Origin: a virus
Strand: one strand, 5' to 3'
Length of the DNA stretch: 25,911 bases
Virus record (IMG/VR): IMGVR_UViG_3300027977_001244
Location: 1-25,911 of that record
Under the pieces are notes generated by a model. It did no database searches, was not told the DNA's origin, and was given only the letters and a program-made list of their open reading frames with translations. The position numbers and the translations under genes are program-made. Below are positions 3,689 to 21,322 of the stretch, piece after piece; position 1 is the stretch's first letter; the number at the start of each line of letters is the position of its first letter.

Positions 3689-4388
3689 TTGTGTTCACCA
3701 AGTTGTGTTGTTTGATGTATTGTAACACATAGTTGGCCCAAAAGCAATGGCCTTTGGCATCAAAATGGTACCATTTTGAGGGCACATGCCCGTTTTGTTG
3801 CAAAATGGCATTGTAAGAACCCTGTCTGTTGTAAGGGTACATGTAACTGGTACCCCAAATATGTTGATTTTGGACATCACTGAAAGTGCTGTGCCCACTG
3901 TAAAACAAGTGAGGGATGTTCGACCTTTGCAGTTCGGTGTGTAATGTCCAAATCTTTTCATGACATTCCTGAGTTTTGATTGTCCAATCTACGTCAACCA
4001 CAAATTGTTTGTATCGTTGTTGCAATTTTGCAGGAACCCAATCTGCCCCAGATGCATTGACCTGATACCATGTGCCGTTGTGCAACCACTCTTCTCGTTC
4101 CCAAGTGGTCCACTGTATGACCATGAATGTGTTGCTCAATTTGTCAGGGTTGTTGGCTATCCACTCTCTAGTGGTTCTGATAATGCGATCATTACTGCTG
4201 GCCGACTCTGCATCACAGACCAATGTACGGCCAAGATCACGTGCCAAATGTGTACACCAACTGGCTGCCAAGTTTACAGGATGTGGACGACGATCTATAC
4301 CGTTCTTACCATCATCCACTGCAAATGCATCTGGCACAACTGCTTCTGCGGCAGCGGTGTGACTACAACCATTTGCATACAGTATCAT
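3669..4388 (-). CDS. SGNH hydrolase-like protein, 239 aa
   Basis: The N-terminus ILYANGCSHTAAAEA has the block I Ser of SGNH/GDSL hydrolases (S9). The ESASSND segment fits block II, VIQWTTWEREEW fits the block III region, and HFDAKGHCFWANYV near the C-terminus supplies a candidate Asp/His pair. SGNH enzymes are usually esterases or acetyl transfer enzymes acting on sugars or lipids. The frame is open further upstream, but I chose the ATG at 4388 because it overlaps the TGA of the upstream cytidylyltransferase as ATGA and places the GCSHT motif at the N-terminus. The neighbour suggests a glycan or polyol-phosphate substrate; this is inference. Confidence 0.65.
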   Translation of the reverse strand: MILYANGCSHTAAAEAVVPDAFAVDDGKNGIDRRPHPVNLAASWCTHLARDLGRTLVCDAESASSNDRIIRTTREWIANNPDKLSNTFMVIQWTTWEREEWLHNGTWYQVNASGADWVPAKLQQRYKQFVVDVDWTIKTQECHEKIWTLHTELQRSNIPHLFYSGHSTFSDVQNQHIWGTSYMYPYNRQGSYNAILQQNGHVPSKWYHFDAKGHCFWANYVLQYIKQHNLVNTNALPTD

Positions 4389-4876
4389 CTGGGACTGGGG
4401 CCACCTGTGTCGTCTGCGCCCACTGGTTCCCATGACTCTAATTTCTTTTTCATGTCTTCTGCTGTGGCCACACGCTGACGCAGTTCACTGCTGCTGAATG
4501 AATGATCGCGACCATTGAAGTGTAGTTCAATATCACGCTTGTGACAAATCTCACGACCAGTAAACTCTCGGCCTTCGTATTCTACACCAAGTATACGTAC
4601 ATCAATAGGCAGGATCAACAACAGGTCTTCCAGATCTTTTTCTGTGTTGTACACCCAAACTTCATCCACATACTTGCAACCTATCAGTTGCAGTTGTCGT
4701 TCCACGATACTTTGCACTGGCCGGTTCTTGTTGGGACGATCCAAGGTGGGATCGTTTTGCAACGCACAGATCAAGTAGTCACATTCTTCCTTGGCTTCAC
4801 GCAACATGGCAATGTGACCAGCGTGTAACAAATCAAAAGTGCTGGCAGTAAAGCCCACACGTCTTCCATCCATCAT
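4385..4876 (-). CDS. Cytidylyltransferase-like nucleotidyltransferase (TagD/GCT family)
   Basis: 163 residues with the nucleotidyltransferase signature GFTASTFDLLHAGH (HAGH at 18-21), a RPV-x-S-I-V-ER segment at 52-60, and SSSELRQRV at 128-136 in the place of the second nucleotide-binding motif. Family members activate glycerol phosphate, sugar phosphates or choline phosphate with CTP, releasing pyrophosphate. The first of two tandem ATGs is used, with AAGGA seven bases before it. The gene is coupled to the following SGNH gene by ATGA. With the glycosyltransferases in the window it could supply an activated sugar or polyol for a glycan, but the substrate is not visible in the sequence. Confidence 0.8.
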   Translation of the reverse strand: MMDGRRVGFTASTFDLLHAGHIAMLREAKEECDYLICALQNDPTLDRPNKNRPVQSIVERQLQLIGCKYVDEVWVYNTEKDLEDLLLILPIDVRILGVEYEGREFTGREICHKRDIELHFNGRDHSFSSSELRQRVATAEDMKKKLESWEPVGADDTGGPSPR

Positions 4877-4886
4877 ATCAATTTCC

Positions 4887-5285
4887 TTAACTTATCTCGG
4901 TGCGTCCGTCACCAATGTCACGGGTGTGTACATAACCGCCTGCTGAGTTGCGCATGGCTTGGTCTTGTTCCCATGTTTCCATCACAACGTGTCTGCATAC
5001 ATTTTGGAACCAACGATCCACAATGTCTGAGTCTGCGTCTGTGGGCTTCATCATGTAACCAGCCTTGACCAGGCGTGCAATGAATATCTCATTCCAGTCT
5101 AGTTCAAATGCACCTTGGTGCAAGTTGTTGGGATCAATGTCCATGTTCAAGATAGCCACATACGGTTCGTTGTTTTCGGTGGCAATTTGCTTGGCAGTTT
5201 TCTCAGGCGCCTTGGGTACACGAATAACTTTTTCCGCTACGGGTTTAGATTCTGGTTTTTTCTTAAATCTATCAAAGAATCCCAT
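4887..5285 (-). CDS. Conserved phage protein of unknown function, 132 aa
   Basis: It begins MGFFDRFKKKPE, followed by a Lys/Pro/Glu-rich linker of about 30 residues. A compact domain follows, containing AFELDWNEIFIARLVKAGY, DRWFQNVCRHVVMETWEQDQ and a short C-terminus. It resembles a hypothetical protein of T4-like cyanophages. Two upstream in-frame ATGs exist at 5297 and 5309. The ATG at 5285 is preferred because it overlaps the queE stop as TAATG and gives the usual amphipathic N-terminus. No catalytic motif is apparent. The position directly after queE may be by chance. Confidence 0.72.
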   Translation of the reverse strand: MGFFDRFKKKPESKPVAEKVIRVPKAPEKTAKQIATENNEPYVAILNMDIDPNNLHQGAFELDWNEIFIARLVKAGYMMKPTDADSDIVDRWFQNVCRHVVMETWEQDQAMRNSAGGYVHTRDIGDGRTEIS

Positions 5286-6130
5286 TATTTGCCCCATCCG
5301 TTGCCCCAAAGGTCAACGTGTAATCGTGGACTGTACCAGTAGCCACGTTTGAGTGCTTCATCGGCCACATTGATTCTGTTGCCATCGTATACACTGACCA
5401 CACCTCCCACAGGCATCACAAACACAGGACCACCAAACTCACGCAAGCGATATTCATCTACTGCACGATCCAGTTCATCAAAGTCCGCAACTTTTTCTAC
5501 CACAAACTTGAGATAGGTCACACCGTATGTTTCATAGTCCCACACAACATCAGGCTTGATAGCGTCCGCCCAGGACTCACCTGACACTGATAGTTTGGGA
5601 CTGACACTGAATGTGATCTCACCAAACCAGTTGCGCAAGTAGTCTTTAAATTCCCGAGTCAAGTCTTGAGTACCATTGGTTTCAAATGTGATGTGTCGCA
5701 GGCCATGTTCGTGCAACACATCCAACAGTTCTGGATAAGCACGTTGCCAACCCAACAACGGCTCACCTCCGGTAATAACCAAGTGTACTGGATTGCCATT
5801 GGGTTGAAGCCAATGCCCATTGGGCAACAATGCTGTCATCCGGTCCACAAGTTGTTCTACTGTGTATGTGGGACTCAAGTGTTTGAAGTCTGGATGCCAT
5901 GACGCATAACTGTCGCAACCTGTGTTCACCAGCGGCAATTCTTCAAATGTTTTGTACAACTCCACAGTCTTGGCCACTTCGTCTGCTTCTGTGCTCTTTT
6001 CACCAGGTTTGCAGCCAAACCCTGAACAGGTAAAGTTACAACCAAACATGCGCAAAAATACACTGGGCACACCAACATAGCGTCCTTCACCTTGTGCTGA
6101 ATAAAATAATTCTGATACTTTGAGTTTCAT
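5285..6130 (-). CDS. queE: QueE, 7-carboxy-7-deazaguanine synthase (radical SAM)
   Basis: 281 residues. SAQGEG at 11-16 is the QueE N-terminal signature. Radical SAM cysteines are C31 and C35 (GCNFTC). The third is most likely C72 in TGCDSYASW, which matches the canonical C-D-T/S-x-Y-A block; about 36 residues are inserted between the second and third Cys, including another Cys at 40. TGGEPLL at 120-126 binds SAM. QueE converts 6-carboxy-tetrahydropterin to 7-carboxy-7-deazaguanine, the step after QueD (9676-10209). The ATG has AGGA six bases upstream. The gene is downstream of queD on the same strand. Confidence 0.88.
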   Translation of the reverse strand: MKLKVSELFYSAQGEGRYVGVPSVFLRMFGCNFTCSGFGCKPGEKSTEADEVAKTVELYKTFEELPLVNTGCDSYASWHPDFKHLSPTYTVEQLVDRMTALLPNGHWLQPNGNPVHLVITGGEPLLGWQRAYPELLDVLHEHGLRHITFETNGTQDLTREFKDYLRNWFGEITFSVSPKLSVSGESWADAIKPDVVWDYETYGVTYLKFVVEKVADFDELDRAVDEYRLREFGGPVFVMPVGGVVSVYDGNRINVADEALKRGYWYSPRLHVDLWGNGWGK

Positions 6131-6137
6131 GTAATTC

Positions 6138-6827
6138 CTATAGTCTTGTTACTGTGCTCATGCCTGAGCGGTTCTTTTGTAAGTCGGCAGTCTCTTGTGC
6201 TATTTTAACACGAGTTTCCGGCTTTGTCACCCAACCTGGTAATACTGCATCCAAATAGGTCAAATGCTCTGCAGGGGTAGGGTGCGGGTCATCACTGTGT
6301 TTCCATCCTACGGGGTACAACACTGTTTGATAACTGGGCATGATGTTATTTAGAACAGGTTGATACAAATCAAAAATATCTTGATCGCCTGGTGAATAAT
6401 CAAACTGTCGGGGATTCATTATGTCACACATGGACAAAAACTTTGAGTTAACACCTGTGCAGTTTTTTAAAAAATTTGCAGTGGCCTTGATCGAAGCAAT
6501 GTCTCGAATCAAGCATCCTCTTTCAGTGATAGCATCTCGAACATAGCCAGGATCGTATATTGGACAAGTAGTTATGTTGCCTAGTGTCTGCCAACGATCA
6601 GTATAGCGATCCTCACGCATGACATTGGTCCAACACACTACCACAGTATCACCAGCACCAAAATGATGACGCTGATCTGCTTCCATTATGCTGTTAAAAA
6701 TATACTGATTGCCGGCGCCTGATTGACCCCAGTTTTCAAAATAGTCAAATTCTGGAGCAAGACAATCGGCCCAGGTGCTCCAACGATAGTTGGTAAAACT
6801 GCACCCGAATGCAAACAGTCTCGACAT
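6138..6827 (-). CDS. SGNH hydrolase-like protein, 229 aa
   Basis: RLFAFGCSFTNYRW gives block I with its Ser, NWGQSGAGNQYIF gives block II with conserved Gly, VVVCWTNVMREDRY fits block III, and DPHPTPAEHLTYLD near the C-terminus supplies the catalytic Asp and His. The fit to the SGNH family is better than for the second member at 3669-4388. The substrate is unknown; acyl or acetyl groups on sugars are typical. The ATG at 6827 overlaps the radical SAM stop as TGATG, which rules out the longer upstream extension that would overlap that gene by 100 bases. The two proteins may act in one pathway. Confidence 0.7.
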   Translation of the reverse strand: MSRLFAFGCSFTNYRWSTWADCLAPEFDYFENWGQSGAGNQYIFNSIMEADQRHHFGAGDTVVVCWTNVMREDRYTDRWQTLGNITTCPIYDPGYVRDAITERGCLIRDIASIKATANFLKNCTGVNSKFLSMCDIMNPRQFDYSPGDQDIFDLYQPVLNNIMPSYQTVLYPVGWKHSDDPHPTPAEHLTYLDAVLPGWVTKPETRVKIAQETADLQKNRSGMSTVTRL

Positions 6828-8833
6828 CACGCCACCAGTTGTTTTTTCTTCACTGAGAAACTGCCTTGTGCTTTGGCAGCACCTGCGCCTCGACGTGCAC
6901 CTGTGAAGTCTCCTCCACTGACGCAATCCACAGTGGCTTTGCCAAAGTTTCTGCGTCTTGCAAAGTAAAACAACTCCAAGAATCGGTTGAAACTCATGGT
7001 CTTGTCTTCAGGAAAGTCCAAGCGATACACAGTAGTAGCCTTTGTTAACGGTCGATTGAAACTTAAATATTCCCAGATGTTGTAGTCCAACTTCAAGTTC
7101 ATAGGGTACTGATTTCTGTCATCATACTTGATGTAGTAACTTCTTTGCAGTTTCATCAAACTGGCCAGCAAGTCTTCTGGCAAGTTGTAACGTTCCAGGA
7201 ACTTTTCCAAATAGTCATACAATTGTTCCACTTGATTTTCTTGATGCATGTTCATGCTGGTTCTGTGAATAATGTTCCAACCGTGAATTTCTACACCAAT
7301 CTTGGGATGATTAATGCGTCCAGTCATCATCCAATTGTTGAAGTACATGCGAGCTTCAGCTTCTTCTTTCTTCACCCAGTCATTGGTCATAAAGTATGCA
7401 AACAAGTCTTCGTAGTAGTCGTTGTAACTAACGTCCAAGTACTTGTTGACGAAACGTGCAACCAAGGTAGCAAAGCCATTGATATGAAACGTGGTCTGGA
7501 ACCAGGCAAATATCTGTGCGTCCAACATCACCGGAGTGGGCATGTCTTTGGTACCTGTGATAACATCAATGCTTTCTTCAATGTGTTCCACACTGTAGCT
7601 GCCAGCAAAATAGTCTGTGACAGGTTGGCTGGTGATCTTGAACAGTTTCTTCTGCAACAAGTTCATCTCAGCATTTTCCAACAACTGTGCTTGGAATGTT
7701 GTGATGCCAGTGTGTTGATTTAACTCATACAAGGCATAGAAGTTTTTCTTCCATGACTCCAGCGTCTCCCCGGGCAAACCCAAGATCAGTTCTGTGTATG
7801 CAGGGATATTGCGTTGATCGCACAGTTCAAACACTTCGTTGAGCTTGTTCATTTCCATGTTCTTGCGACGAATGTTTTCCAACACGTCATGGTCCAGACT
7901 TTGTACACTGAGCGTAAGCCCTTGATTGAAGCCACGTGCATCCAACAGTTTCTTCACAATGTCTATGACTTCTTTCTTTTGATTCTTGGCCCAGGCTACT
8001 GAGAATGTTCTCGGTGAGCCAAATTTTTCCTGCATCTCAATGATCTTGTCTGCAATCATGCCATCACGTTCAGGATACATGCCAAAGTTGGCGTCAGTGA
8101 TTGAGATCCAATCAAAGTTACGCCGCGCCATCCACTCTAGTTCAGCAAACACACGTTCCAGTTGAAATTTTTTGACCTTGTTGTAGGTCAAACTGCCCCA
8201 GTCGCAAAAGGTGCAAGCATAAGGACAACCACGATTGGTTTCCAAAGTGCCTTGCCATGTGACTTCGGGATGATCTGCAATCATCTGATCAAATATGCCC
8301 GACAAGTAAGGACTGGGCACCTGATCCAGAGTATCAATGCGTTCGGCATCTTGTGTTTTTACAGCAACACCGTTGCGATTGATCAACAAGCCAGGAATTG
8401 ATTCCCAGTCTTTGGTTTCAAAATGTTCAAGTATACGTTTGAAAGTTATTTCGCCTTCGTAACAAATCACAAGATCCATGAATGATTCTTTACGGAACAA
8501 ATCAGGATCAGTGATTGCAGGTTCTGGCCCGCCAAACACTGTTAACACACCAGGATTGATTTCCTTGATGCGCCGAGCCAACGCATAATTGTAACGATGA
8601 TTCCATACATAGGTACTAAAAGTCACTATGTCATTTTGTGCCAACCGTTGTGCCAACGGTTCTAGCGCATCTCTACGCCATATCCACTCGGTGGCTGAAA
8701 AATTATCACGAATCCAGGGATCCTGCAGCGAATAACTCCATACCACGCCTGCCGAATATGGCAAGTAGTAGGCGTTGAATTCTTTTGGCCCTTGTTGAAA
8801 GTTGGGCTGAACAAAGGCTATTTTATATGACAT
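6827..8833 (-). CDS. B12-binding-type radical SAM protein, 668 aa
   Basis: The N-terminal 190 or so residues look like the Rossmann cobalamin-binding domain of class B radical SAM enzymes (KIAFVQPNF, then TVFGGPEPAIT and DLVICYEGE). The classical DxHxxG cobalamin-ligand motif is not evident. The radical SAM core follows with NRGCPYACTFCDWGS, the cluster ligands being C203, C207 and C210, and a TIM-barrel pattern including TLSVQSLDHDVLENI and ELILGLPGETLESW. A C-terminal extension of about 250 residues has no recognised motif. Enzymes of this class methylate or rearrange unactivated carbons. No ribosome binding site is visible before the ATG. The substrate could be a sugar, lipid or modified base; I cannot choose. 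Confidence 0.82.
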   Translation of the reverse strand: MSYKIAFVQPNFQQGPKEFNAYYLPYSAGVVWSYSLQDPWIRDNFSATEWIWRRDALEPLAQRLAQNDIVTFSTYVWNHRYNYALARRIKEINPGVLTVFGGPEPAITDPDLFRKESFMDLVICYEGEITFKRILEHFETKDWESIPGLLINRNGVAVKTQDAERIDTLDQVPSPYLSGIFDQMIADHPEVTWQGTLETNRGCPYACTFCDWGSLTYNKVKKFQLERVFAELEWMARRNFDWISITDANFGMYPERDGMIADKIIEMQEKFGSPRTFSVAWAKNQKKEVIDIVKKLLDARGFNQGLTLSVQSLDHDVLENIRRKNMEMNKLNEVFELCDQRNIPAYTELILGLPGETLESWKKNFYALYELNQHTGITTFQAQLLENAEMNLLQKKLFKITSQPVTDYFAGSYSVEHIEESIDVITGTKDMPTPVMLDAQIFAWFQTTFHINGFATLVARFVNKYLDVSYNDYYEDLFAYFMTNDWVKKEEAEARMYFNNWMMTGRINHPKIGVEIHGWNIIHRTSMNMHQENQVEQLYDYLEKFLERYNLPEDLLASLMKLQRSYYIKYDDRNQYPMNLKLDYNIWEYLSFNRPLTKATTVYRLDFPEDKTMSFNRFLELFYFARRRNFGKATVDCVSGGDFTGARRGAGAAKAQGSFSVKKKQLVA

Positions 8834-8845
8834 TATGTATTTAAG

Positions 8846-9679
8846 TCATTTAGAAAAGTGTGCATGTGGATTATCAAACTGCACCATTTGCTTGTTTATA
8901 TCATTCCGGGCTAGTTTTTCCCAAGGGTCTTGTGTGCCTTTGAAGATGTTTTCAAAGAACTCAATGCTAATGCCATGATCTCGCATGTACACAGCTAACT
9001 TGACACAGTCTTTATGACGCAGTTCGATCTGCGTTCGACTGTGGAAATCTGCTTCGTCAAATGGACGACCTTCCAGTGATGCGCGTTCTTTAAACGTGGT
9101 GTCATTGTTGTTGCCTGTGATGTCGGCACGGTCATGCAACACCCATACAGGTATGCGTTCCCAAATGTCCAACATGTAGGCCTGCTGACTGAGCCAGCCA
9201 TCTTGCACACTGTGCGGAGAAATGTAACCCAACAATTCATACCACTTGCGAGGCAAAATTGGAAAAATGCTGTAGGGATGATCCAAGTGTGTATGGAATG
9301 CCAACAATTTGAACTGGCCTTCGTAACGCATGATCTCTGTGTTCCACCCCTGGGTCTCCATCACAGCATCATCGTTCCAGATCATCAGCCAGCGAGCATC
9401 AGTTTGTTCAGCCAGTTTATTGTTGTAGATGTGCAGTCTATGGTAGCCCAAGCGTTCAAACTGCATGGCAGTATAAGTAAGTTCTTGTTCGTCCAACCAC
9501 GGCTGTAGTTCAGTTTTAAAATACTCAGTACCTGCCACATCATCATTGTCAAACGCAAACATCAACTGTAGTCGGTCTGGATGATCAGCCAGTTTGATCA
9601 GGCTGCGAACACTGCGGCCCAGGCTTTCAGTCCGGCCTCTTGTGGCCAGCAACATGGCAATATCGTAAGCTGGTGTCAT
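8846..9679 (-). CDS. GT2-like (GT-A fold) glycosyltransferase
   Basis: 277 residues starting YDIAMLLATRGRTESLGRSV, the typical first strand and loop of GT2 enzymes. FAFDNDD near 42-47 and WLMIWNDDAVMETQGW at 97-112 carry the acidic nucleotide-sugar/metal motif (D103, D104). The C-terminal half is rich in His and aromatic residues and probably binds the acceptor. No membrane segment is present, so it is a soluble enzyme. It overlaps queD as ATGA and so lies on the queD transcript. Because of that linkage a role in glycosylating DNA or a modified base is possible, but a surface glycan is at least as likely. Confidence 0.75.
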   Translation of the reverse strand: MTPAYDIAMLLATRGRTESLGRSVRSLIKLADHPDRLQLMFAFDNDDVAGTEYFKTELQPWLDEQELTYTAMQFERLGYHRLHIYNNKLAEQTDARWLMIWNDDAVMETQGWNTEIMRYEGQFKLLAFHTHLDHPYSIFPILPRKWYELLGYISPHSVQDGWLSQQAYMLDIWERIPVWVLHDRADITGNNNDTTFKERASLEGRPFDEADFHSRTQIELRHKDCVKLAVYMRDHGISIEFFENIFKGTQDPWEKLARNDINKQMVQFDNPHAHFSK

Positions 9680-10209
9680 GCAAACAAATCCTCATTCCAT
9701 TCTCTATGGCCTTCTCTAAAAGCCATGTTTGATTGTGTTTCACGTACTTCCACTCGATAGCACCAAAGACGTTCTGCTTCACCTTGTCCCCACATATCTG
9801 GGATATAAACGCCATTGACATACTTGTAAAGATAGTCAGCGAGGGACTCGCATCCTAACTTTGGTAGTATAGTCAATTTCATAAGACCACGCTTCTCGGC
9901 TTCTTTATACCAATCAAGTTCCGGGTCATCAGAACTACAAAGCGTGGTGTGGTCAAACTGACTTTCCAATACTGACTTGAGTTCTTTTAGTCCGCCATAG
10001 TCAGCAGCCCAGTTGCGTGTGTCTAGGTTGTCTGTGCCAAAGTAGAACTTCATGGAGAAGCTGTATCCATGTATCAAGTTGCAATGACTGTCTGCCCTCC
10101 ACTGACGATATGCGCATGGAAATGCATCGTGGTATTCTTTAGTACTAGTGTATTTGTATTGTCTTGCGGACATCCAACGGTGCCCTACTTGGTTTTGGTC
10201 TTGTGTCAT
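9676..10209 (-). CDS. queD: QueD-like 6-carboxy-tetrahydropterin synthase with altered zinc site
   Basis: 177 residues of the PTPS/QueD T-fold. FPCAYRQW, HCNLIHGYSF at 42-51, SQFDHTTL at 83-90 and GCESLADYL (E120) align with the canonical AAHR, CxxxHGH, LDHxxLN and PTAExxA blocks. The catalytic Cys (C43) and the Asp-His pair (D86, H87) are kept. At the three zinc-His positions there are Y34, H47 and Y49. H27 or H42 could substitute. The enzyme turns dihydroneopterin triphosphate into carboxy-tetrahydropterin, the substrate of QueE. The ATG has AGGAG upstream and a sigma70-type promoter begins the transcript. It is coupled to the following glycosyltransferase by ATGA. Confidence 0.8.
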   Translation of the reverse strand: MTQDQNQVGHRWMSARQYKYTSTKEYHDAFPCAYRQWRADSHCNLIHGYSFSMKFYFGTDNLDTRNWAADYGGLKELKSVLESQFDHTTLCSSDDPELDWYKEAEKRGLMKLTILPKLGCESLADYLYKYVNGVYIPDMWGQGEAERLWCYRVEVRETQSNMAFREGHREWNEDLFA

Positions 10210-10290: not shown

Positions 10291-10692
10291 TTATGCTGGT
10301 TGTTGGTAACCTGTGGCTTTGTAGTTGGCTTGCCCAACAATAACTCCGCGAACACCGCCAACGGGATCAGCACAGTCGCCGTGACGTCGGGGAATCAAAT
10401 GCACATGTGGATACATCACAGTTTGTCCAGCGGCAGCACCACAGTTGATGCCTATGTTGAATGCATCACATTCACCAGCATCAACCATTCTACGACCTTC
10501 ACGCATGGCTGTTTCAAAACAATCCGAGATCACTGCATCTGTGTTGTATTGTGGCACAAACAACAAGTGTCCTGGAGCCACAGGATAACGATCTTGAAAC
10601 ACAGCCACATGAAAGTCGCTGAGTCGGCCAACTTCCAAATCCCAAGGTGCGACTCCTGCTGACTGTGCTTGTTCTAATGTTTCATATTGCAT
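10291..10692 (-). CDS. HIT-family hydrolase/transferase
   Basis: About 133 residues. HLLFVPQYNTDAV and GINCGAAAGQTVMYPHVHLIPR carry the HIT signature, followed by RRHGDCADPVGGVRGVI. The usual HxHxH triad reads Y-P-H-V-H, so the first His is Tyr while the nucleophilic middle His and the third are kept. HIT enzymes hydrolyse or transfer nucleotides from dinucleoside polyphosphates, nucleotide-sugars or AMP-lysine type substrates. I use the ATG at 10692, which overlaps the amidinotransferase end by 11 bases; a GTG at 10716 is the alternative. It is the last gene before the queD promoter. A nucleotide-processing side role is plausible. Confidence 0.82.
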   Translation of the reverse strand: MQYETLEQAQSAGVAPWDLEVGRLSDFHVAVFQDRYPVAPGHLLFVPQYNTDAVISDCFETAMREGRRMVDAGECDAFNIGINCGAAAGQTVMYPHVHLIPRRHGDCADPVGGVRGVIVGQANYKATGYQQPA

Positions 10693-11743
10693 TGATAATC
10701 TTTCTTTTATTTCCACGTCTTTTAATGTCTAAAGTGAAACAGTGCAAATTGCCAAACCAAAAATTCATGTGTCTAAATGGCGACACATGGACTGTGATGT
10801 TTTTACTCAAGAAAAAATCTTTTAGTGCTGGTGTAGCATGACTCATCACTATGTTCTGACTATCAACCACTATTACATTAGCATAAAAAATCACCATCTG
10901 TGTGTAGCCTTTGCTGTCTTCAAACAATCCAGCTAACTCGTGTGGCCCAAAATTTAAATAATTGTCATCAATGTAAGGCGTGATATCATAAATTGTTTTA
11001 TTTTTCAAACACTTTGGTACAAATTCAGTGCCCACACAAAACACAGTGTCGTCGTTGGTCATAAAGAATCCATGATCCACATGCCCCCAGTTTTGCAGTA
11101 TATTGTCTGCTGGCACAATAGTTTCGGCTGGCAAATTTTTATGCATCCATTCAAACCCCAACTGAGTACCTGGACCACGAGTGTTGGTTATCAATGTATC
11201 ACCACATTTGAACATGGTTGCTGTATGAGTCAACAGTAGATTTCGATACAACTTTTCATAAACCAAAGTCCCACGATTGGCTACTGGATCCAAGTTTTGA
11301 TATTCAAACATTTTATGCATGTCTCTCAACATTGGGGGCGGTTGACTGATCCAATTTGCACCAGCTGCAAACATTGTTTGAAAAATATTGTAGTATGCCA
11401 AACTATCCAAGTATCGATCCGGCATACTGGTGTATGTTTGGAAGATTGTGTCTCCATATACTAGATACTGATCTCTGGGCACCATGGGACTGAATGGTTC
11501 TTTCACAGTAAAACTAGCAAATTGAATTTCATTGCTGTATTTAAAAACTTTAGGACGATGTACCTTTGCACCCAAAGTTTGCAAAGTCTGTGCCAAATAA
11601 TCCAAGTCTGATTTAGTTTCCGCTAGCATGGTATTAAATGCCGATCTTTGATCTAAAGGTATGCACCAGTCTAGGTCTCCAGGACTGTAACAATCACCTA
11701 CTATGACCTCTTCAAGTGGATCCCATTCAGTCCATACACTCAT
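10682..11743 (-). CDS. Amidinotransferase (GATM/StrB1-like)
   Basis: 353 residues similar in plan to glycine and inosamine-phosphate amidinotransferases. SVWTEWDPLEEVIVGD begins the pentein fold. KCGDTLITNTRGPG holds the likely catalytic Asp (D182), NWGHVDHGF the His (H221), and WFGNLHCFTLDIKRRG the nucleophilic Cys (C335) with the family-typical D-I-x-R-R-G tail. The enzyme would move an amidino group from arginine to an amine. The acceptor is unknown; an aminosugar, an amino acid or an aminomethyl-deazaguanine are all possible. The ATG at 11743 overlaps the stop of a 25-residue ORF as TAATG. It lies between folE and queD. Confidence 0.85.
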   Translation of the reverse strand: MSVWTEWDPLEEVIVGDCYSPGDLDWCIPLDQRSAFNTMLAETKSDLDYLAQTLQTLGAKVHRPKVFKYSNEIQFASFTVKEPFSPMVPRDQYLVYGDTIFQTYTSMPDRYLDSLAYYNIFQTMFAAGANWISQPPPMLRDMHKMFEYQNLDPVANRGTLVYEKLYRNLLLTHTATMFKCGDTLITNTRGPGTQLGFEWMHKNLPAETIVPADNILQNWGHVDHGFFMTNDDTVFCVGTEFVPKCLKNKTIYDITPYIDDNYLNFGPHELAGLFEDSKGYTQMVIFYANVIVVDSQNIVMSHATPALKDFFLSKNITVHVSPFRHMNFWFGNLHCFTLDIKRRGNKRKIINAI

Positions 11744-11820
11744 TAGTGAGATTCCTCTTTTAGGCCAAGCCGCAGTTGAATACTATCCTCACTCGACTTT
11801 TGTCCGTCCCATGTTGCCAT
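11743..11820 (-). CDS. Small ORF, 25 aa, between the BI-1 and amidinotransferase genes
   Basis: A 25-codon frame starting MATWDGQKSSEDSIQL and ending KEESH. Its ATG lies two bases after the BI-1 stop, with AAGGA seven bases upstream, and its stop overlaps the amidinotransferase start as TAATG. It exactly fills the gap between two real genes, and both junctions are typical of this genome. It has no membrane segment. It could encode a real microprotein or act as a translational coupling leader for the amidinotransferase. No homolog is known to me. Confidence 0.5.
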   Translation of the reverse strand: MATWDGQKSSEDSIQLRLGLKEESH

Positions 11821-11822
11821 GA

Positions 11823-12521
11823 TTATTCCTTTCTACCGCCAAACAACTGCAACAGATTCAAGAACAAGTTGATAAAGTCCATGTACAAAGTCAATGCACC
11901 ACGTATTTCTGCACTGTCACTGGTCTCTACACTGAGTTCTTGGCGAATCTTTTGTGTATCATAGGCAGTGAGTCCCAGGAAGATTATGATTGCCAATGCT
12001 GAAATCACCATCTGCATCACAGTTGATCCAATAAAAATATTCACAATGCTGGCAATGATGATGGCAATCAAGCCCACAAACATAAACTTACCCACACTGT
12101 CAAGACTGCGTCGGGTAAAGTAGCCATAACCACTCATTACCCCAAACAAGATGGCTGCACCCATGAATGCACTCACAATCGATCCCATGGTAAACACCGC
12201 AAAGATCATGCTAAAACTCAAGCCCATCAAGGCAGCAAATCCATGCAAGCACAACTGTGCTGTGGATTTTGTGGGATTATTGGCCAACACATAACTCACA
12301 CCAAATATGGCTGCCAAGGGTGCAAAGATAACAATCCATTTCAACACACCAGTGAAGAAGAATTGCAACAGTTCTGGCGTGGTACCAATCCAGTAACTGA
12401 TCAGCATGCTGACCAGCACAGCCAAGCTCATGTGTCCATACACACGACCCATGGCCGAATTAATTTCTTCTGCTGAACGATAATTGCCAACATCATTGTC
12501 ATTGTAGTTTGCGCCAAACAT
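11823..12521 (-). CDS. Bax inhibitor-1 (TMBIM/YccA-like) membrane protein
   Basis: 232 residues with about seven hydrophobic segments starting near residue 30 (MSLAVLVSMLISYWIG, then WIVIFAPLAAIFGVSYVLA, FSMIFAVFTMGSIVSAFMGA, FMFVGLIAIIIASIVNIFIG and MVISALAIIIFLGLTAYDT). GLTAYDTQKIR and ALTLYMDFINLFLNLLQLFG at the C-terminus are the signature of the bacterial BI-1/YccA family, which acts as calcium/proton leak channels or FtsH modulators. It would sit in the host inner membrane. GGAG lies before the ATG. A phage copy may modulate FtsH proteolysis or lysis timing, which is inference. Confidence 0.87.
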   Translation of the reverse strand: MFGANYNDNDVGNYRSAEEINSAMGRVYGHMSLAVLVSMLISYWIGTTPELLQFFFTGVLKWIVIFAPLAAIFGVSYVLANNPTKSTAQLCLHGFAALMGLSFSMIFAVFTMGSIVSAFMGAAILFGVMSGYGYFTRRSLDSVGKFMFVGLIAIIIASIVNIFIGSTVMQMVISALAIIIFLGLTAYDTQKIRQELSVETSDSAEIRGALTLYMDFINLFLNLLQLFGGRKE

Positions 12522-12737: not shown

Positions 12738-12854
12738 TTAAGTTAATTCTGCTACTCGATATTGGCTGGCAGGATAGTGTTCCTGCAACCATTCCAACAA
12801 CCCTGGTTCCCAGGGCAATTTGATTTCACCGGTTATGTTTGTAATGTGCATCAT
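12738..12854 (-). CDS. Small ORF, 38 aa, coupled to folE
   Basis: A 38-codon frame starting MMHITNITGEIKLPWEPGLL and ending YRVAELT. Its first ATG overlaps the folE TGA as ATGA, with AGGAG eleven bases upstream in folE; a second ATG follows immediately. It fills almost the whole gap to the next gene. The fragment PWEPGLLEWLQEHYPAS looks like folded protein rather than random translation. It is likely a real small gene of unknown function. Confidence 0.55.
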   Translation of the reverse strand: MMHITNITGEIKLPWEPGLLEWLQEHYPASQYRVAELT

Positions 12855-13546
12855 CTTGGTGCAAACTCCTGTTGTAACTTGATATTGTCCATGAACTCTT
12901 TTTTCACACTGTCGTCCGTTTTAAAGGCACCACGCAACACAGTGGTCTGTGTTAGGCTGGAGTGTGCCATGATGCCGCGATTCTCACAGCAGCCATGCAC
13001 TGCCTGAATGTACACACCAACGTCTTTTGACGCAGTTGCTGCCATGATCTCGTTGGCAATGTCTATGCACAGTTCTTCCTGTAGCGTACCGCGACGGGCA
13101 CACCACTGAGCAATGCGTGTGTACTTACTAAGTCCGATCAGTTTCTCTGCCGCAATAATGCCAATATAAGCAACCCCAGCAACGGGTTGGTGATGATGAC
13201 TACACATACTACGAAGTTCACTGCGAACCACGAGCATGCCTTCGTAACGGTCTGCTGAATCATTTGGAAACGCTGTACAATCTGGTGCTTGTTCATATCT
13301 TCCTGCCATTATTTCGTTGTAGTACATTTTGGCCAAACGTCGAGCTGTGCCCTTGCTATTAGGATCTGTTTCACGATCAATCAGCAATGCATCTAACACA
13401 CCCTCAAACGCCACTGTGGCTTCGTCAATGAGTTTTTCTTTAATGGCATCGGTCATGTAATCGCTGATGTTGTCGCCGGCCCAGAAGCGGCGACCTCGGG
13501 CTGTCATTTGTTCTCTAAGTATTTGGGATAAATTTTTTTCTTGCAT
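12851..13546 (-). CDS. folE: FolE, GTP cyclohydrolase I
   Basis: 231 residues. RSMCSHHHQPVAG carries zinc ligands C115 and H118, LIGLSKYTRIAQW is the conserved GLSK block, and VHGCCENRGI carries the third zinc Cys (C186) and the RG pair. The enzyme converts GTP to dihydroneopterin triphosphate and formate. In a phage that also encodes QueD and QueE it most likely feeds 7-deazaguanine synthesis rather than folate. GGAG lies before the ATG and a sigma70-type promoter directly upstream. The N-terminal 45 residues before the catalytic domain are extended and helical, as in many bacterial homologs. Confidence 0.93.
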   Translation of the reverse strand: MQEKNLSQILREQMTARGRRFWAGDNISDYMTDAIKEKLIDEATVAFEGVLDALLIDRETDPNSKGTARRLAKMYYNEIMAGRYEQAPDCTAFPNDSADRYEGMLVVRSELRSMCSHHHQPVAGVAYIGIIAAEKLIGLSKYTRIAQWCARRGTLQEELCIDIANEIMAATASKDVGVYIQAVHGCCENRGIMAHSSLTQTTVLRGAFKTDDSVKKEFMDNIKLQQEFAPR

Positions 13547-13563: not shown

Positions 13564-13592
13564 ATTGTACACTATTTAGATCTTGCAGTCAA
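13564..13592 (-). promoter_or_regulatory. Sigma70-type promoter of folE
   Basis: On the - strand TTGACT (13587-13592) and TACAAT (13564-13569) are separated by 17 bases, each one mismatch from consensus. The -35 overlaps the stop of the upstream glycosyltransferase gene. RNA would begin about 10 bases above the folE ATG, just before its ribosome binding site. Confidence 0.7.
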
Positions 13593-14620
13593 GTGGTTAA
13601 GGAATCAAATACTCGTATGGTATTGAAAACCTGGCGTCTATTTGTTCGAAAGTATACAAGCAGTTGTTCAAAGTTGGCTGCTAATCTTGGTTGCAGTTGT
13701 TTACGCAGTGCTTCACAATCTGCCAAACTGTATTGATTGTTGAGTTGGCTGATTAGGTCATATACGGATTGATGTCTTTGGGTTTCATCCGGTATGGCAT
13801 CATATTGGTGACCACCAAGTATGTCATCAAACGTATCAAACCCCAATTCCCTGACATGTTCAACCAATCCTGGCACACCATACCATATGGGAATCTGACG
13901 TTGCATTATGGCCTTCCAAGTCTTTTCAGTAAGAAACACACTGCGCCATTGTGGCGTATTGCCACAGTATTCAGTTTGACTACTGGTTTCAGCTGCGATA
14001 TTAAACAAACAAGAATGAAATTGGGGATTGCTGATATCAAACTCTTGCACTCGATCTGTCAACACACCGTCTACTAACAATGGCAAATCAACATCTACTA
14101 CGTCACGATACTGATTGAGGCCGTCACCTGCGCTAACGCCAAAACTCAATCTAACTGTGTCTAGCCCTATGTGATCCAAAAAGAAACGTGCCAGCCTTGC
14201 TCGGTTAAGGGAGGGTCTACGCAACAAACACAAGAACTTTCGGTCAAGGGCTAGATCAAAGTTGTGGTTGAGTTGATCTAACCGGTACTCACTGCGATGG
14301 ATCAACCATGTGGTAAAACAAACTGCAGGATAAGGCAATCGATCAACATTTACGTGTGCATTGAACAATACCATGAATCGGTCTGGATGTGATTGTAACA
14401 ACATGCGAGTCAGTGGCCCGATGTCGTCTGGCCCAAATCCTTCATCCAGGAATGACAGTATGATTTTGCTTTGAGCGAACTCTTCAGCAGTGATACCACT
14501 GCAAATGCAATCCTTCACAATTTGGCTTGCACAATAATCTGGTGTATGCATTTCTTCCGGTTGATAATGCGAAGCACCGTATTTCAGCATGCCTGGTCTA
14601 TTGCGAATTATGCAACTCAT
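13589..14620 (-). CDS. GT10-like glycosyltransferase, full length, 343 aa
   Basis: The C-terminal half has FLTEKTWKAIMQRQIPIWYG (Thr-Glu-Lys at 231-233), then a VPGLVEHVRELGFDTFDDI segment, the arrangement seen in GT10/fucosyltransferase-like GT-B enzymes. The N-terminal half (KIILSFLDEGFGPDDI, CLLRRPSLNRARLARFFLDH) probably forms the acceptor domain. It is a clear paralog of the truncated + strand gene at 2-439. No membrane anchor is seen. The ATG overlaps the aminotransferase stop as ATGA, linking it to the sugar genes upstream. Donor and acceptor are unknown. Confidence 0.68.
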   Translation of the reverse strand: MSCIIRNRPGMLKYGASHYQPEEMHTPDYCASQIVKDCICSGITAEEFAQSKIILSFLDEGFGPDDIGPLTRMLLQSHPDRFMVLFNAHVNVDRLPYPAVCFTTWLIHRSEYRLDQLNHNFDLALDRKFLCLLRRPSLNRARLARFFLDHIGLDTVRLSFGVSAGDGLNQYRDVVDVDLPLLVDGVLTDRVQEFDISNPQFHSCLFNIAAETSSQTEYCGNTPQWRSVFLTEKTWKAIMQRQIPIWYGVPGLVEHVRELGFDTFDDILGGHQYDAIPDETQRHQSVYDLISQLNNQYSLADCEALRKQLQPRLAANFEQLLVYFRTNRRQVFNTIRVFDSLTT

Positions 14621-15216
14621 TCAACTATGCGGGTTTGTCTACAATCTGGATAAGGGACCTGACGTGGCGGTTGACTAATATAATCTTTCAACAACTCTAG
14701 TCCACGTTCGGCTTCTTCAATAGTAGGGCGATAGTGATAGCCCACTCGAAACTCTGTTTGTTCAACCCAAGGGCTCACAGTCAAATCACGTCCATCATAT
14801 CGCATGCGCAACAAGGCTTGGTACGCTGTTTCATCATCCAACAGTATGGCACCGCCGCGACCAATAGCCAAAGGCTTGTCGTGCCCAAAGCTCACGCATT
14901 GCATTTGACCAGGTCGGTACATGTTGGCTTCCAGCCTACGTGCTGAATCCCAGATGCGTGTGAGTTCAAACTTGTACTCTCCGGTCCATTGTTGACGATG
15001 TGGCAATGAATCTGGATAGTATTCGTAGCGGATGCCCAGCTTGTGCATGGTCATTGGAATGCTTAAATAAGTGTACGGGGTAAACGTACAATTCCGTATT
15101 TGATCATGCCGCAGGCATAATTCAATGGCGTGTGTACAACAATCAGTCATGATTGCACGTGGTGCACCAGTAAACTCTGCCAACGCAGTTTCAAATGCCA
15201 GTATCTTATCGAACAT
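14617..15216 (-). CDS. DegT/DnrJ/EryC1-type PLP aminotransferase, compact form
   Basis: About 199 residues. AIMTDCCTHAIELCLRH near the N-terminus, TPYTYLSIPMTM, WDSARRLE with D90, and CVSFGHDKPLAIGRGGAIL with the likely PLP Lys (K114) follow the order of DegT-family sugar aminotransferases. These make amino sugars from keto-sugar nucleotides. The usual length is about 370 residues. Here the C-terminal small domain is mostly missing, although the PLP half is complete. The ATG at 15216 is used because it starts the family-typical helix; 15231 is possible. It overlaps galE by 11 bases. The pairing suggests a UDP-linked sugar pathway. Confidence 0.8.
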   Translation of the reverse strand: MFDKILAFETALAEFTGAPRAIMTDCCTHAIELCLRHDQIRNCTFTPYTYLSIPMTMHKLGIRYEYYPDSLPHRQQWTGEYKFELTRIWDSARRLEANMYRPGQMQCVSFGHDKPLAIGRGGAILLDDETAYQALLRMRYDGRDLTVSPWVEQTEFRVGYHYRPTIEEAERGLELLKDYISQPPRQVPYPDCRQTRIVE

Positions 15217-16159
15217 ACCAGTTCCAAGCATGTTGGATCATGTGATCTAATTCAAATTGTTTCCACCCCGTGGCAACCATGCCAAACTTGGCAGCACTTG
15301 CTGTGAGCACAGCAGGATCTCCTGGCCTGGCCGCTCCCAACACAACTTTTAATTTTTTTCCAGTTATGCGTTCGGCAGCGGCAATGATTTCTCGATTACT
15401 GACGCCGTTATTGTTGCCCAAATTGTATACACCAGTTGGGATTTCGGCATCCAAGGCCATGACATGTGCTCGAGCAATGTCTTCCACATGCACATAGTCA
15501 CGCACACATGTGCCGTCTGGGGTGGCAAAGTCTACGCCATTCAAGGTGAATTCTGCATCATCTCTCAAGGCTTCCAGCACTCTGGCAATGATGTGTGTGG
15601 CACCTAATTCTTGTCCGTGTCTTGTCTTACTGTCAGCACCACAAGCATTGAAGTAACGAAATGCCACGTAGTCTAATTTGTAGGCAGTGTGATATGCTGC
15701 CATGATCCGTTCTACCATGAGTTTGCTGTCGCCATAAGGAGATATGGGCTCACAAGGATCCACTTCGTGGCAGGGAGTCATCACAGGTTCACCATACACT
15801 GCGGCACTGCTACTGAAAATAACTCTGGTCCGGGGCATGCTGCTGCGCACCTGATCCAACAGTGTCAAGGTATTGACCACATTGTTTTCAAAGTAACGCC
15901 CAGGATGTAGGATGCTAGGTCCAACCAGACTGGTGCCAGCACAGTGAATGATGGCTTGGGGACCATGTACCAATAGTTTTACCAAAGAATCTTTGTCAGC
16001 AAACTCAAGTTCAACATAATCGTGAAACACTGATCGTAATCTTTCTGGGCACTTAGCTTTGTCGATGCCCACAACACGGTGTCCCAAGTCAGCCAATATT
16101 AGTGCAGTCTGGCCGCCAATGTATCCAGCAGCGCCTGTTACTACTACAGTTTTTTTCAT
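15206..16159 (-). CDS. galE: UDP-glucose 4-epimerase-like (extended SDR)
   Basis: 317 residues of the extended short-chain dehydrogenase fold. TGAAGYIGGQ at 8-17 binds NAD, FSSSAAVYGE holds the catalytic Ser, SPYGDSKLMVE gives Tyr142 and Lys146, and RYFNACGAD plus CVRDYVHVEDIARAH are GalE-type substrate blocks. It would interconvert UDP-glucose and UDP-galactose or the GlcNAc forms. The ATG has AAGG seven bases upstream and overlaps the glycosyltransferase stop as ATGA. With the DegT protein and glycosyltransferases it looks like a small nucleotide-sugar cassette. The exact sugar is not provable here. Confidence 0.9.
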   Translation of the reverse strand: MKKTVVVTGAAGYIGGQTALILADLGHRVVGIDKAKCPERLRSVFHDYVELEFADKDSLVKLLVHGPQAIIHCAGTSLVGPSILHPGRYFENNVVNTLTLLDQVRSSMPRTRVIFSSSAAVYGEPVMTPCHEVDPCEPISPYGDSKLMVERIMAAYHTAYKLDYVAFRYFNACGADSKTRHGQELGATHIIARVLEALRDDAEFTLNGVDFATPDGTCVRDYVHVEDIARAHVMALDAEIPTGVYNLGNNNGVSNREIIAAAERITGKKLKVVLGAARPGDPAVLTASAAKFGMVATGWKQFELDHMIQHAWNWYVR

Positions 16160-17370
16160 GACTCAACCTTAACTACGTGATATTTAGCTTCAGCCACATG
16201 GTCACGGTATCTCGCACCTGCCCTATTCCAATGCTCACCAAGACCAAGCAGTATATCAACCACACGGTCAACAGTGCCATTGTTCCAGTCAGATATGAGA
16301 CCCATGTTGTGATGAGGTTCTCGCAGGAGATTTTGCATCTTGTGATATGCATCATCAATGCTCCACGGAACGTACAGTCTGTTGGGATCGTTGGCAAAGG
16401 TTTCGGGGAATGACCGGTATGCCGGATATAACACATTGCAGCCGATAGTGTCAGCCTCACTGACCGTATTGCTGACCCAATCTTGTAAAGCACAGTTGAA
16501 CAAAACTCTAGTGTTGTTGAGATGATCATAGTATTCATTCTTGGTGATGTTGTCGTAGATTTTCAACTTGCCAGCTGCCTCCATGACCCTGGCACGTGTC
16601 ACATACTCTGGGTTGTTGCTACGCAATGGCCCACCTGAGTAGATGGCAAACTCGCATGGCTCGCTAGTAAGTTCACCATACATTTCAATGAGGTCCATGA
16701 AGAAGCCAGGTTGCTTTTCTTGATCAAAACGTGCGGCAAAGCCCACACGGTGCGGACGATCTGCAAATGGTCGAATATTGTCGCTACCGCCAATGCGTTC
16801 TAACACTTCCTCTTTGCCAAATGCCAAACCTGAGATGTTGTAGATAGGAGCAGTCCAACCAGCAATACGCATGTGTGCAATCATTTCTTCGTTGGTTGCA
16901 AGAACTCCACCATTAGATTTAGATACAATTTCATTGACCATTTGTTCATATAAACTCATCCACTTACTCATGCCCCACACATGCACAAAGTCATCGGGGT
17001 CAATGGCCTGTGCTAGACAGCGTACATAAATGCGAGGACGTTGTTCTGGGGGAATCTGGTCCATGATGTATGGCAAACTCTCAATGCCAGGCTGGAACAT
17101 GTCTTCAAAATAGATCACATCTTCATTTGTGACTTCACCTTGTTGCATGAGTCTGACCAAGTTCATCATCTGGCTCATGCCAAAGTAACTGCGTCCGTGT
17201 GCATCCAGCACTTGTCCCACAACAATCTTTTGACTGTTGTCTAGGGTCAAACCCGGCACATAAACCACGTCAAGACCTCGACGTTCAAACACACGTCGAT
17301 TCCACTCTGTGAGTTGCAGTGTGTAACGGGCCTCATAACTTTCAAGGCCCATGTAGTATAGTTTTCTCAT
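16156..17370 (-). CDS. GT-B glycosyltransferase (GT4-like)
   Basis: 404 residues with the C-terminal donor domain of GT4-type enzymes: HRVGFAARFDQEKQPGFFMD at 207-226 starts the second Rossmann half, and QDWVSNTVSEADTIGCNVLY with E305 is the nucleotide-sugar contact segment. The N-terminal half binds the acceptor. It is soluble and lacks a signal peptide. Similar glycosyltransferases are common in T4-like phages of aquatic bacteria. It is coupled to galE by ATGA and preceded by a GAGAAAG ribosome binding site. It most likely modifies a glycan or DNA base; the substrate is unknown. Confidence 0.8.
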   Translation of the reverse strand: MRKLYYMGLESYEARYTLQLTEWNRRVFERRGLDVVYVPGLTLDNSQKIVVGQVLDAHGRSYFGMSQMMNLVRLMQQGEVTNEDVIYFEDMFQPGIESLPYIMDQIPPEQRPRIYVRCLAQAIDPDDFVHVWGMSKWMSLYEQMVNEIVSKSNGGVLATNEEMIAHMRIAGWTAPIYNISGLAFGKEEVLERIGGSDNIRPFADRPHRVGFAARFDQEKQPGFFMDLIEMYGELTSEPCEFAIYSGGPLRSNNPEYVTRARVMEAAGKLKIYDNITKNEYYDHLNNTRVLFNCALQDWVSNTVSEADTIGCNVLYPAYRSFPETFANDPNRLYVPWSIDDAYHKMQNLLREPHHNMGLISDWNNGTVDRVVDILLGLGEHWNRAGARYRDHVAEAKYHVVKVES

Positions 17371-19236: not shown

Positions 19237-19730
19237 AGTTTCTTATCACCTTTGTAATCATCCCATGAAGTAAATGTCTCACGGCTCATTAGGCTGTGCA
19301 GACTGTGGCACCAGACGCCGGGATTGGTAGCGTCAAAGTCCTTGTCATCTATTTTTAACATTGTATTATAATTCCACAGTTTTGTATACGGTACACTTAC
19401 TCGAATCTGTGGAACGAAGTTGCGGTAATCACACAAGCCGCCTTCATGGAATTCCTCCACTGCCGAGATGGGAATATCCAAAGTGCAAAGGTAACCACGT
19501 GTCAAAAAGTACGTGATCATGCTTTCCCACTTGCGCCACTCTTCGGGAGTTTGAGGATTGAAACTGTGGTTGGCACCAAAGAATATGTGTTCACAACCTG
19601 CCATTTTGGCAGCAATACTATCAACAGATTGTATGCCTACAACAAACAATGTTTGCTTGCCAAATGCCGGAGTGCGTTCTACTTCTGTCCCTGTAAAGAA
19701 ATCAACTTCTGCATGTCCTGCTCTATTCAT
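19233..19730 (-). CDS. Conserved phage protein of unknown function, 165 aa, next to dpdA
   Basis: 165 residues: MNRAGHAEVDFFTGTEVERT, GKQTLFVVGIQSVDSIA, EHIFFGANHSFNPQTPEEW, a YLCTLDIPISAVEEF segment, VSVPYTKLWNYNTMLKIDD and a C-terminal DFDATNPGVWCHSLHSLM. The alternating strands and helices suggest an alpha/beta domain, perhaps barrel-like. It resembles a conserved T4-like phage protein whose function I do not know. The ATG overlaps the dpdA TGA as ATGA, so it is translated with the transglycosylase and may assist it. Confidence 0.76.
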   Translation of the reverse strand: MNRAGHAEVDFFTGTEVERTPAFGKQTLFVVGIQSVDSIAAKMAGCEHIFFGANHSFNPQTPEEWRKWESMITYFLTRGYLCTLDIPISAVEEFHEGGLCDYRNFVPQIRVSVPYTKLWNYNTMLKIDDKDFDATNPGVWCHSLHSLMSRETFTSWDDYKGDKKL

Positions 19731-21322
19731 GTTGTGGTTCCCAACGTATCAAGTTTATTAGAATCAAAATCTTCTTGTTCAGTTTGTTCGTATTCAAACA
19801 GTGCATTGAATTGTGTACGTGCGTTCTTGGTTTTCTTACCTTTAAATCCACGTGTGCCCACAATCTCCATCCAGTAATCATCATAATATTCAATGATGGC
19901 TTCTGAATCTTCACGTGTGGGAGCGGCAAATATGGCTTCCACAATGTCTTCAAACTTGGCATAATCCCCTGTGCTACGGCGCATCATAGCAGGGTGTTCT
20001 CCTGCATCAAAGCGACGATTGGCTTCTTGCACAGCAGTCAAGTGCATCCACACATTGTGCCCCATCAGCAATGCATAACTAAAACTGTCCCAACTTGTCT
20101 TGCCCCACTTGCCATTTTTGTTGACATCTGGCAGCACATCATACATTTCTGGATCTCGGAAGTTTTCTTCTGTGAGTACAACTCCGGGCTTGGGTGTACC
20201 TGCTTTGTAAATGCAAATGTCTTTCATTGTAAGCATGTTGCTGAGCGGCGAATCTTCCCAGCGTGGGTAAATGCCATCTGCTACAATGCCATCTGACCAC
20301 TTGCGTGTGTCTGTGGCATACTTCTTGTCGTCAGCACTTGGCGCCATGCGATACGACCACTTGGAGTCATGTTCAAACACATTTTCAAAGTACACCTGTC
20401 CATTGGCAGTAGCGAGGAATGGGCTGGCACAATCAAAGGAGATAGTAAATTCGGGGTTAGCGTATTTTCTAACTGCTCTTTGAATCACGGTGAGTAGCAC
20501 AGCCCATTCCAACTTTGAGGTGCCCAAGAAGTGCATCCAATCGTGTACGCCTGGCTGCAACAAGCCATCATACTTGAGTGCAATCAGTCGCTTGAGTACC
20601 AAGTGTACATCGCACATGTTCTGTCCACCCATGGCCCAACCATCAAAGTGTGTGTCTGGATATTGCACAGGGTCACAGTATTGTTTCATGGTTTGGTACC
20701 ATGTTTCTGCTGACGTGTGATTATCACCTTGCAACACATTCAAGAACTTAGCACCACCATTGGCTTTGCCCCGACGGTGAGCCATAAAGTATTCATTGTT
20801 GTACTTGGTGGCGTCTACTGCTTCTTGCAGTGTTTTGATACCACAGGCATCGCTGGCTTTTTTGTCATGAATAACCCAGGTAGGGATATCAAGAATCATG
20901 CCATAGTCGCTGATGGTATCCAGCCACTTCAAAATACTACTGCGTTTCTTTTCTGCTTTGGCACAGCCCGAGTTGGCTTTCCAGTCGCCTTCCCACAAGC
21001 CTTTGGCAATCTGGAATCCACCAGAGTCGCCAAGCATGAACGTGCCTGACTCGCGATTGCGAACCATGTCTTCTGACCAGTCCTGCTTGGTCAAATCCAA
21101 GTTGGCATGCCCGCCTGAATACAATGACCACTTATACGGAAACAATGCTTTTTGACTGTTGAGCCAGTTTATTTGTTCCATATCAGTCAGCCCCTGGGGA
21201 AATCTTGCAGGGTCTACATACAGTTCGTTGCGTTGCTTGCCTACAAAGGTGGCATAAAAGCCAGATATAGCTGGTAAGAACACAGCGTAGTCAAGTTGTT
21301 TGGCGGTTAGATTATCTTGCAA
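19727..21322 (-). CDS. dpdA: DpdA-like DNA guanine transglycosylase (TGT superfamily)
   Basis: 531 residues. FMLGDSGGFQIAKG holds the TGT signature (D99, S100-Q104), MILDIPTW places D145 where TGT recognises the base, LNVLQGD and WAMGGQN match the QG and GG blocks, and TISFDCASPF gives the nucleophile D297 (FDC-x-x-P). The Cys-rich zinc site of tRNA-TGTs (CxCxxC...H) is absent after D297, which fits DpdA, the enzyme that exchanges guanine in DNA for a 7-deazaguanine. A C-terminal extension of about 150 residues is unassigned. The start is TTG at 21322, because a stop lies seven codons upstream and no ATG exists in frame. It overlaps the DUF2061 gene by 11 bases. Confidence 0.85.
   Translation of the reverse strand: MQDNLTAKQLDYAVFLPAISGFYATFVGKQRNELYVDPARFPQGLTDMEQINWLNSQKALFPYKWSLYSGGHANLDLTKQDWSEDMVRNRESGTFMLGDSGGFQIAKGLWEGDWKANSGCAKAEKKRSSILKWLDTISDYGMILDIPTWVIHDKKASDACGIKTLQEAVDATKYNNEYFMAHRRGKANGGAKFLNVLQGDNHTSAETWYQTMKQYCDPVQYPDTHFDGWAMGGQNMCDVHLVLKRLIALKYDGLLQPGVHDWMHFLGTSKLEWAVLLTVIQRAVRKYANPEFTISFDCASPFLATANGQVYFENVFEHDSKWSYRMAPSADDKKYATDTRKWSDGIVADGIYPRWEDSPLSNMLTMKDICIYKAGTPKPGVVLTEENFRDPEMYDVLPDVNKNGKWGKTSWDSFSYALLMGHNVWMHLTAVQEANRRFDAGEHPAMMRRSTGDYAKFEDIVEAIFAAPTREDSEAIIEYYDDYWMEIVGTRGFKGKKTKNARTQFNALFEYEQTEQEDFDSNKLDTLGTTT

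Follow-up and report, generated by a model that had tools for sequence, protein, structure and literature searches.

Human L-arginine:glycine amidinotransferase (GATM) relies on the catalytic residues Asp254, His303 and Cys407 (PMC3684758). In phages, CP220 was noted in 2010 to carry an amidinotransferase within a cassette of radical SAM genes (PMC2853527), and a glycine amidinotransferase is included in a gene table of lake viruses (PMC8226683). dADG is present in CP220 DNA (cited in PMC8306585); no link with the CP220 amidinotransferase gene is shown. Neither a viral branch of these enzymes nor an altered catalytic triad was found described in the literature searched. The DNA analyzed here is the 25.9-kb record of a water-borne phage, taken at its full length (the window), in which an amidinotransferase-like protein is encoded between folE and queD.

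The gene is an uninterrupted open reading frame that starts with ATG, spans exactly positions 10682–11743 on the minus strand and encodes 353 residues. An AGAGGA ribosome-binding site (11753–11758, minus strand) lies just upstream of the ATG, and the dN/dS relative to the nearest relative is 0.082/1.05. The reading frame is thus a real gene under purifying selection. The first-pass annotation had delimited the same interval without giving a strand, and its placement between folE and queD is also correct: FolE (GTP cyclohydrolase I, 12851–13546, minus strand) is recognized by PF01227 (2.4e-39), and QueD (9676–10209, minus strand) by PF01242 and phrog_2389. The amidinotransferase gene adjoins neither of them. 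On the folE side there is the gene of a membrane protein that we take, from reading its sequence, to be BI-1-like (11823–12521, minus strand, no PHROG match). On the queD side lies the gene of a HIT-family protein (10291–10716, minus strand, PF01230 1.7e-10), and its likely ATG and the end of the amidinotransferase gene overlap (ATGCAATATGA).

The protein is matched by no curated Pfam or NCBIfam profile, and its sole profile match is phrog_25854, a family of unknown function. Among PDB sequences, phmmer matched it to HsvA (5e-26), SxtG (1e-19), StrB1 (9e-19) and GATM (3e-16). The AlphaFold model (pLDDT 83, pTM 0.87) adopts the five-bladed α/β propeller of the penteins. All the top Foldseek matches of this model are penteins, the best being HsvA, SxtG, StrB1 and GATM, well above arginine deiminases and DDAH. 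Read from sequence and predicted fold, the assignment to the GATM/StrB1-type penteins is secure. The family and the direction of the chemistry advanced by the first-pass annotation, with an amine receiving the amidino group of arginine, are supported by phmmer and Foldseek, and amidino transfer by the viral protein appears likely.

The nucleophilic cysteine, the catalytic histidine and the two guanidinium-binding aspartates of a pentein are all recognized. Asp91 (PRD motif, 11471–11473), His221 (11081–11083), Asp223 (11075–11077) and Cys335 (10739–10741), all on the minus strand, correspond to GATM Asp170, His303, Asp305 and Cys407, respectively. They are invariant across the first viral set (n = 75 rows). 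Cys335 would be the nucleophile and His221 the general acid/base, while Asp91 and Asp223 would bind the guanidinium, as do GATM Asp170 and Asp305. It had been stated that the catalytic Asp, His and Cys were all recognizable; this holds for these four residues but not for the triad aspartate that supports the catalytic histidine (GATM Asp254), the place of which is occupied by His173 (11225–11227, minus strand). Asp254 was located by numbering the GATM chain. It is the first Asp of the FDAAD motif, where the viral protein has THTATM, and the region is aligned without local gap. A phage relative that is otherwise of the His type (L083) still has FDAAN at this place, which fixes the alignment with His173 opposite GATM Asp254. 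The GD that follows THTATMFKCG was considered as the catalytic Asp and was ruled out by the GATM chain numbering.

In an aligned sample biased towards relatives of the 10682–11743 protein, all 77 cellular (bacterial) homologs have Asp at the triad column, and 59 of the 75 viral rows have His, the remaining viral rows having Asp (7), Ser, Asn, Met, Pro or Lys. The His group further shares an invariant Gly220, Phe286 and Trp329, none of which occurs in the cellular-type group. Among the extra copies found in jumbo phages, those with Gly220/Phe286/Trp329 have kept the Asp in 1 case out of 15, those with Ile at 286 and Leu at 329 in 4 out of 4. In a tree built by a quick method with the trait columns removed, the cellular enzymes cluster together with StrB1, GATM and the enzyme of phage CP220, and the His types are found in two viral clades. 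Relatives are encoded by at least 570 viral stretches, and the best cellular relatives retrieved by a pattern-based search are less than 30% identical. Judged from these alignments, the protein is a non-canonical GATM/StrB1 member belonging to a subfamily confined to viruses, the active site of which is remodelled; it would work like an amidinotransferase, as a viral variant without the triad Asp of the family. Several records (L322, 331 kb; L393; L083) carry two to four distinct amidinotransferase genes, with a cellular-type gene beside a viral-type one.

The favored reading, to which a probability of about 0.5 is given, is that of an arginine-dependent amidinotransferase from a virus-only subfamily that acts on an amino-sugar or similar amine rather than on a deazaguanine. 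Asp91 and Asp223 would hold the guanidinium of arginine while Cys335 attacks its carbon. The leaving ornithine would be protonated by His221, and the Cys-bound amidino group would then be passed to the amine acceptor to yield a guanidino product. As the equivalent of His221 is supported by an Asp in cellular enzymes and His173 stands at that place here, the relay would have to be tuned differently, probably by a His–His pair or by the Gly220/Phe286/Trp329 remodelling. A PLP aminotransferase encoded nearby would make the acceptor amine, which would serve in the tailoring of surfaces or glycans.

The lost triad Asp could also mean that the protein is a hydrolase or a dead enzyme. The strong purifying selection argues against a dead enzyme. 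In a hydrolase, the thiouronium intermediate would react with water and the substrate would be arginine or protein arginine. Pentein hydrolases have the same Cys/His/Asp core and the residue at the acid position varies within the viral branch, but both the sequence and the predicted fold are much nearer to the transferases than to deiminases or DDAH, and such an activity is considered improbable. The greater proximity to GATM, StrB1 and HsvA than to arginine deiminases would speak for transfer. We infer transfer over hydrolysis, with arginine as the donor and an amino-sugar-like acceptor in this phage.

The acceptor was considered in the light of the neighbouring genes. The window encodes, on the minus strand, a short DegT-type aminotransferase (14617–15231, 204 residues, PF01041 2.6e-12), a GalE-type epimerase (15206–16159, TIGR01179 3.9e-85), a glycosyltransferase (8846–9679, phrog_14945 2.7e-9), a probable glycosyltransferase with a weak match (16156–17370, PF13692 0.04), and an HldE-like sugar nucleotidyltransferase (4385–4876, phrog_7878 4e-33, TIGR02199 2.9e-18). 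The DegT-type protein, a core product of the lineage that is near-universal there, has only about 200 residues and retains the PLP-lysine region. These flanking genes count in favor of an amino-sugar acceptor, and the guanidino-sugar that had been suggested is plausible in this respect. However, DegT, GalE, glycosyltransferase, QueE and DpdA2-like genes are near-universal in the lineage with or without the amidinotransferase. The sugar genes being just as frequent in relatives without it, their link to the amidinotransferase is non-specific. No significant association with DegT, GalE or glycosyltransferase genes was found inside the lineage. The only genes enriched together with the amidinotransferase are those at 13589–14620 (p = 0.01) and 6138–6926 (p = 0.02), out of 14 tests without correction.

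The interval between folE and queD, which form the upstream and downstream borders, is a variable slot. The amidinotransferase is an optional occupant, present in 9 of the 68 intervals of the lineage. The BI-1-like gene is likewise optional, and the other occupants include HIT and a pair made up of a Rieske-like and a PP-loop gene. In six records (L187, L188, L193, L268, L312 and L318), the slot contains a PP-loop ATPase (TilS-like, weak match) accompanied by a Rieske-like protein or some other gene; this pair is a different optional module. Elsewhere in the window, a homing-endonuclease-like gene with NUMOD3 is found at 1062–1640.

Relatives from other phages provide further neighbours. In the nearest marine clade (L035, L010, L022 and L029), the amidinotransferase gene comes after a class III aminotransferase gene and a gene that we take to be 2OG-oxygenase-like from its HxD...H motif, with overlapping ends. 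In this operon it has no obvious sugar genes beside it, which counts against an amino-sugar acceptor. In a second clade, twitch radical SAM genes usually adjoin the amidinotransferase gene, and in L009 the gene directly after the latter encodes a homolog of a KedN5-like cobalamin radical SAM enzyme. This enzyme is encoded in the window at 6827–8833 on the minus strand (NF033712 6e-77, below the model cut-off) and reaches 95% identity between contigs of freshwater phages. Two genes before the L009 amidinotransferase, an FAD-dependent oxidoreductase (weak matches) with a tryptophan-halogenase-like N-terminus is encoded at 8002–9582. In the amidinotransferase-bearing L013, L051, L063 and L083, several radical SAM genes of the twitch/SPASM type stand in arrays. 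The aminotransferase/2OG operon and the radical SAM neighbours count for an amine acceptor, and the presence of as many as four paralogs in a single record of 331 kb would suit varied acceptors. The best fit is an amine supplied by the neighbouring PLP aminotransferase, here possibly an amino-sugar.

The marine class III aminotransferase resembles acetylornithine/omega-aminotransferases, and the top sequence match of the 353-residue protein is HsvA, a polyamine amidinotransferase. Both observations are compatible with a metabolic gene expressed during infection, either amidinating a free small amine such as glycine, a polyamine or an amino acid, or serving mainly to release ornithine. Against this, Gly220 replaces GATM Met302, which presumably makes the pocket more open than one suited to glycine, and a single metabolite would hardly account for several paralogs per genome. 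A small free acceptor is a possibility of lesser weight, somewhat unlikely, compared with an amino-sugar or similar amine.

A guanidino derivative of an aminomethyl-deazaguanine had also been put forward, arising by amidination of preQ1 or of the deoxynucleoside and adding 42 Da to the phage DNA base. In its favor, FolE, QueD, QueE and a DpdA2-like protein are all encoded in the 25.9-kb stretch. The QueE-like radical SAM protein (5285–6130, minus strand, phrog_2076 5e-52) is a 7-carboxy-7-deazaguanine synthase. The transglycosylase candidate (19727–21322, minus strand) contains a DSGGFQ motif and was matched by hhalign with a broad profile to the nt-1 DpdA2 family (96%, E-value of 4.4e-9, 186 columns), over a region that spans DSGG(F/L)Q, HxLG and ISxD; homology to known DpdA2 proteins with the DSGG motif is thereby found. 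It is 36% identical to PA5oct gp316, the gene of which sits near the PA5oct QueE gene. It has no Pfam TGT match, neither the PDB profile search nor AlphaFold/Foldseek (pLDDT 58) yielded a usable result, and two candidate phage VH7D genes did not match it. This DpdA2-like reading frame, missed by Pfam, PHROGs and PDB profiles, is kept across aquatic jumbo phages, which suggests that deazaguanine DNA modification without a phage QueC is widespread among them.

Among 44 longer contigs with an amidinotransferase, QueD was found in 10, a strong QueE match (E-value below 1e-50) in 20, and a DpdA2-like gene in 18, every absence being limited by the fragmentary state of the contigs: L017 shows no QueD and has the same amidinotransferase as a 289-kb record. 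The que- or DpdA2-positive contigs nearly all belong to one large-phage clade, plus that 289-kb record, which belongs to the same clade as the 10682–11743 protein. Co-occurrence with dpdA, an earlier suggested check, is thus weakly borne out by the 18 contigs but follows phage lineage: the amidinotransferase and the que/dpdA2 genes share genomes through it, with no sign of obligatory coupling.

Other observations weigh against a guanidino-deazaguanine. FolE, QueD, QueE and the DpdA2-like protein are core genes of the lineage in which the amidinotransferase is optional (the same 9 of 68), and consistent presence with them is not found. A que gene is absent from the 10 kb around most related amidinotransferase loci, and no que or DpdA2-like gene is detectable in the aminotransferase/2OG-operon subclade on contigs of up to 91 kb. 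Neither QueC nor QueF, both required for preQ1, was found in the 25.9-kb record or in related records of up to 331 kb beyond weak partial PP-loop matches, a single one of which, partial, lies above the cut-off for the QueC family; there is thus no visible phage route to an amine-bearing deazaguanine, with the reserve that contigs may be fragments and that the host may supply preQ1. A guanidino-deazaguanine base would need this host preQ1, and shared genomes are its sole positive support. The proposal is weakened by the optional gene, the missing QueC and QueF and the many close viral relatives without detectable que genes, and amidination of a deazaguanine is very improbable. The same slight chance is given to its fullest form, an undescribed guanidino-deazaguanine DNA base made by phage FolE, QueD, QueE and the DpdA2-like protein with host QueC and QueF, a His-based relay replacing the Asp.

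Most aligned viral relatives lack a residue held to be catalytic in the best-studied amidinotransferase. With the viral branch, nature offers a test of the ways in which guanidino-modifying enzymes can reassemble their Cys/His/Asp relay. The branch also suggests that guanidino chemistry is common in the tailoring cassettes of phages, where it has hardly been studied.

The viral protein shares with StrB1, the scyllo-inosamine-4-phosphate amidinotransferase of the streptomycin pathway, the fold, the core of Cys, His and two Asp, and a sugar-gene neighbourhood, and the two are about 24% identical when aligned by structure. StrB1 differs by an Asp at the triad place and by Thr, Ile and Leu where the viral branch has Gly220, Phe286 and Trp329. 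Human GATM has the same fold and the equivalents Asp170, His303, Asp305 and Cys407; its Asp254 is replaced by His173 and its Met302 by Gly220 in the viral protein. The polyamine amidinotransferase HsvA, the best sequence match (5e-26), differs in that the FDAAD motif is kept. The "glycine amidinotransferase" of the Campylobacter phages CP220 and CPt10 is likewise phage-borne and encoded in a radical SAM gene cassette (PMC2853527), but it has the canonical Asp and groups with the cellular enzymes in the tree.
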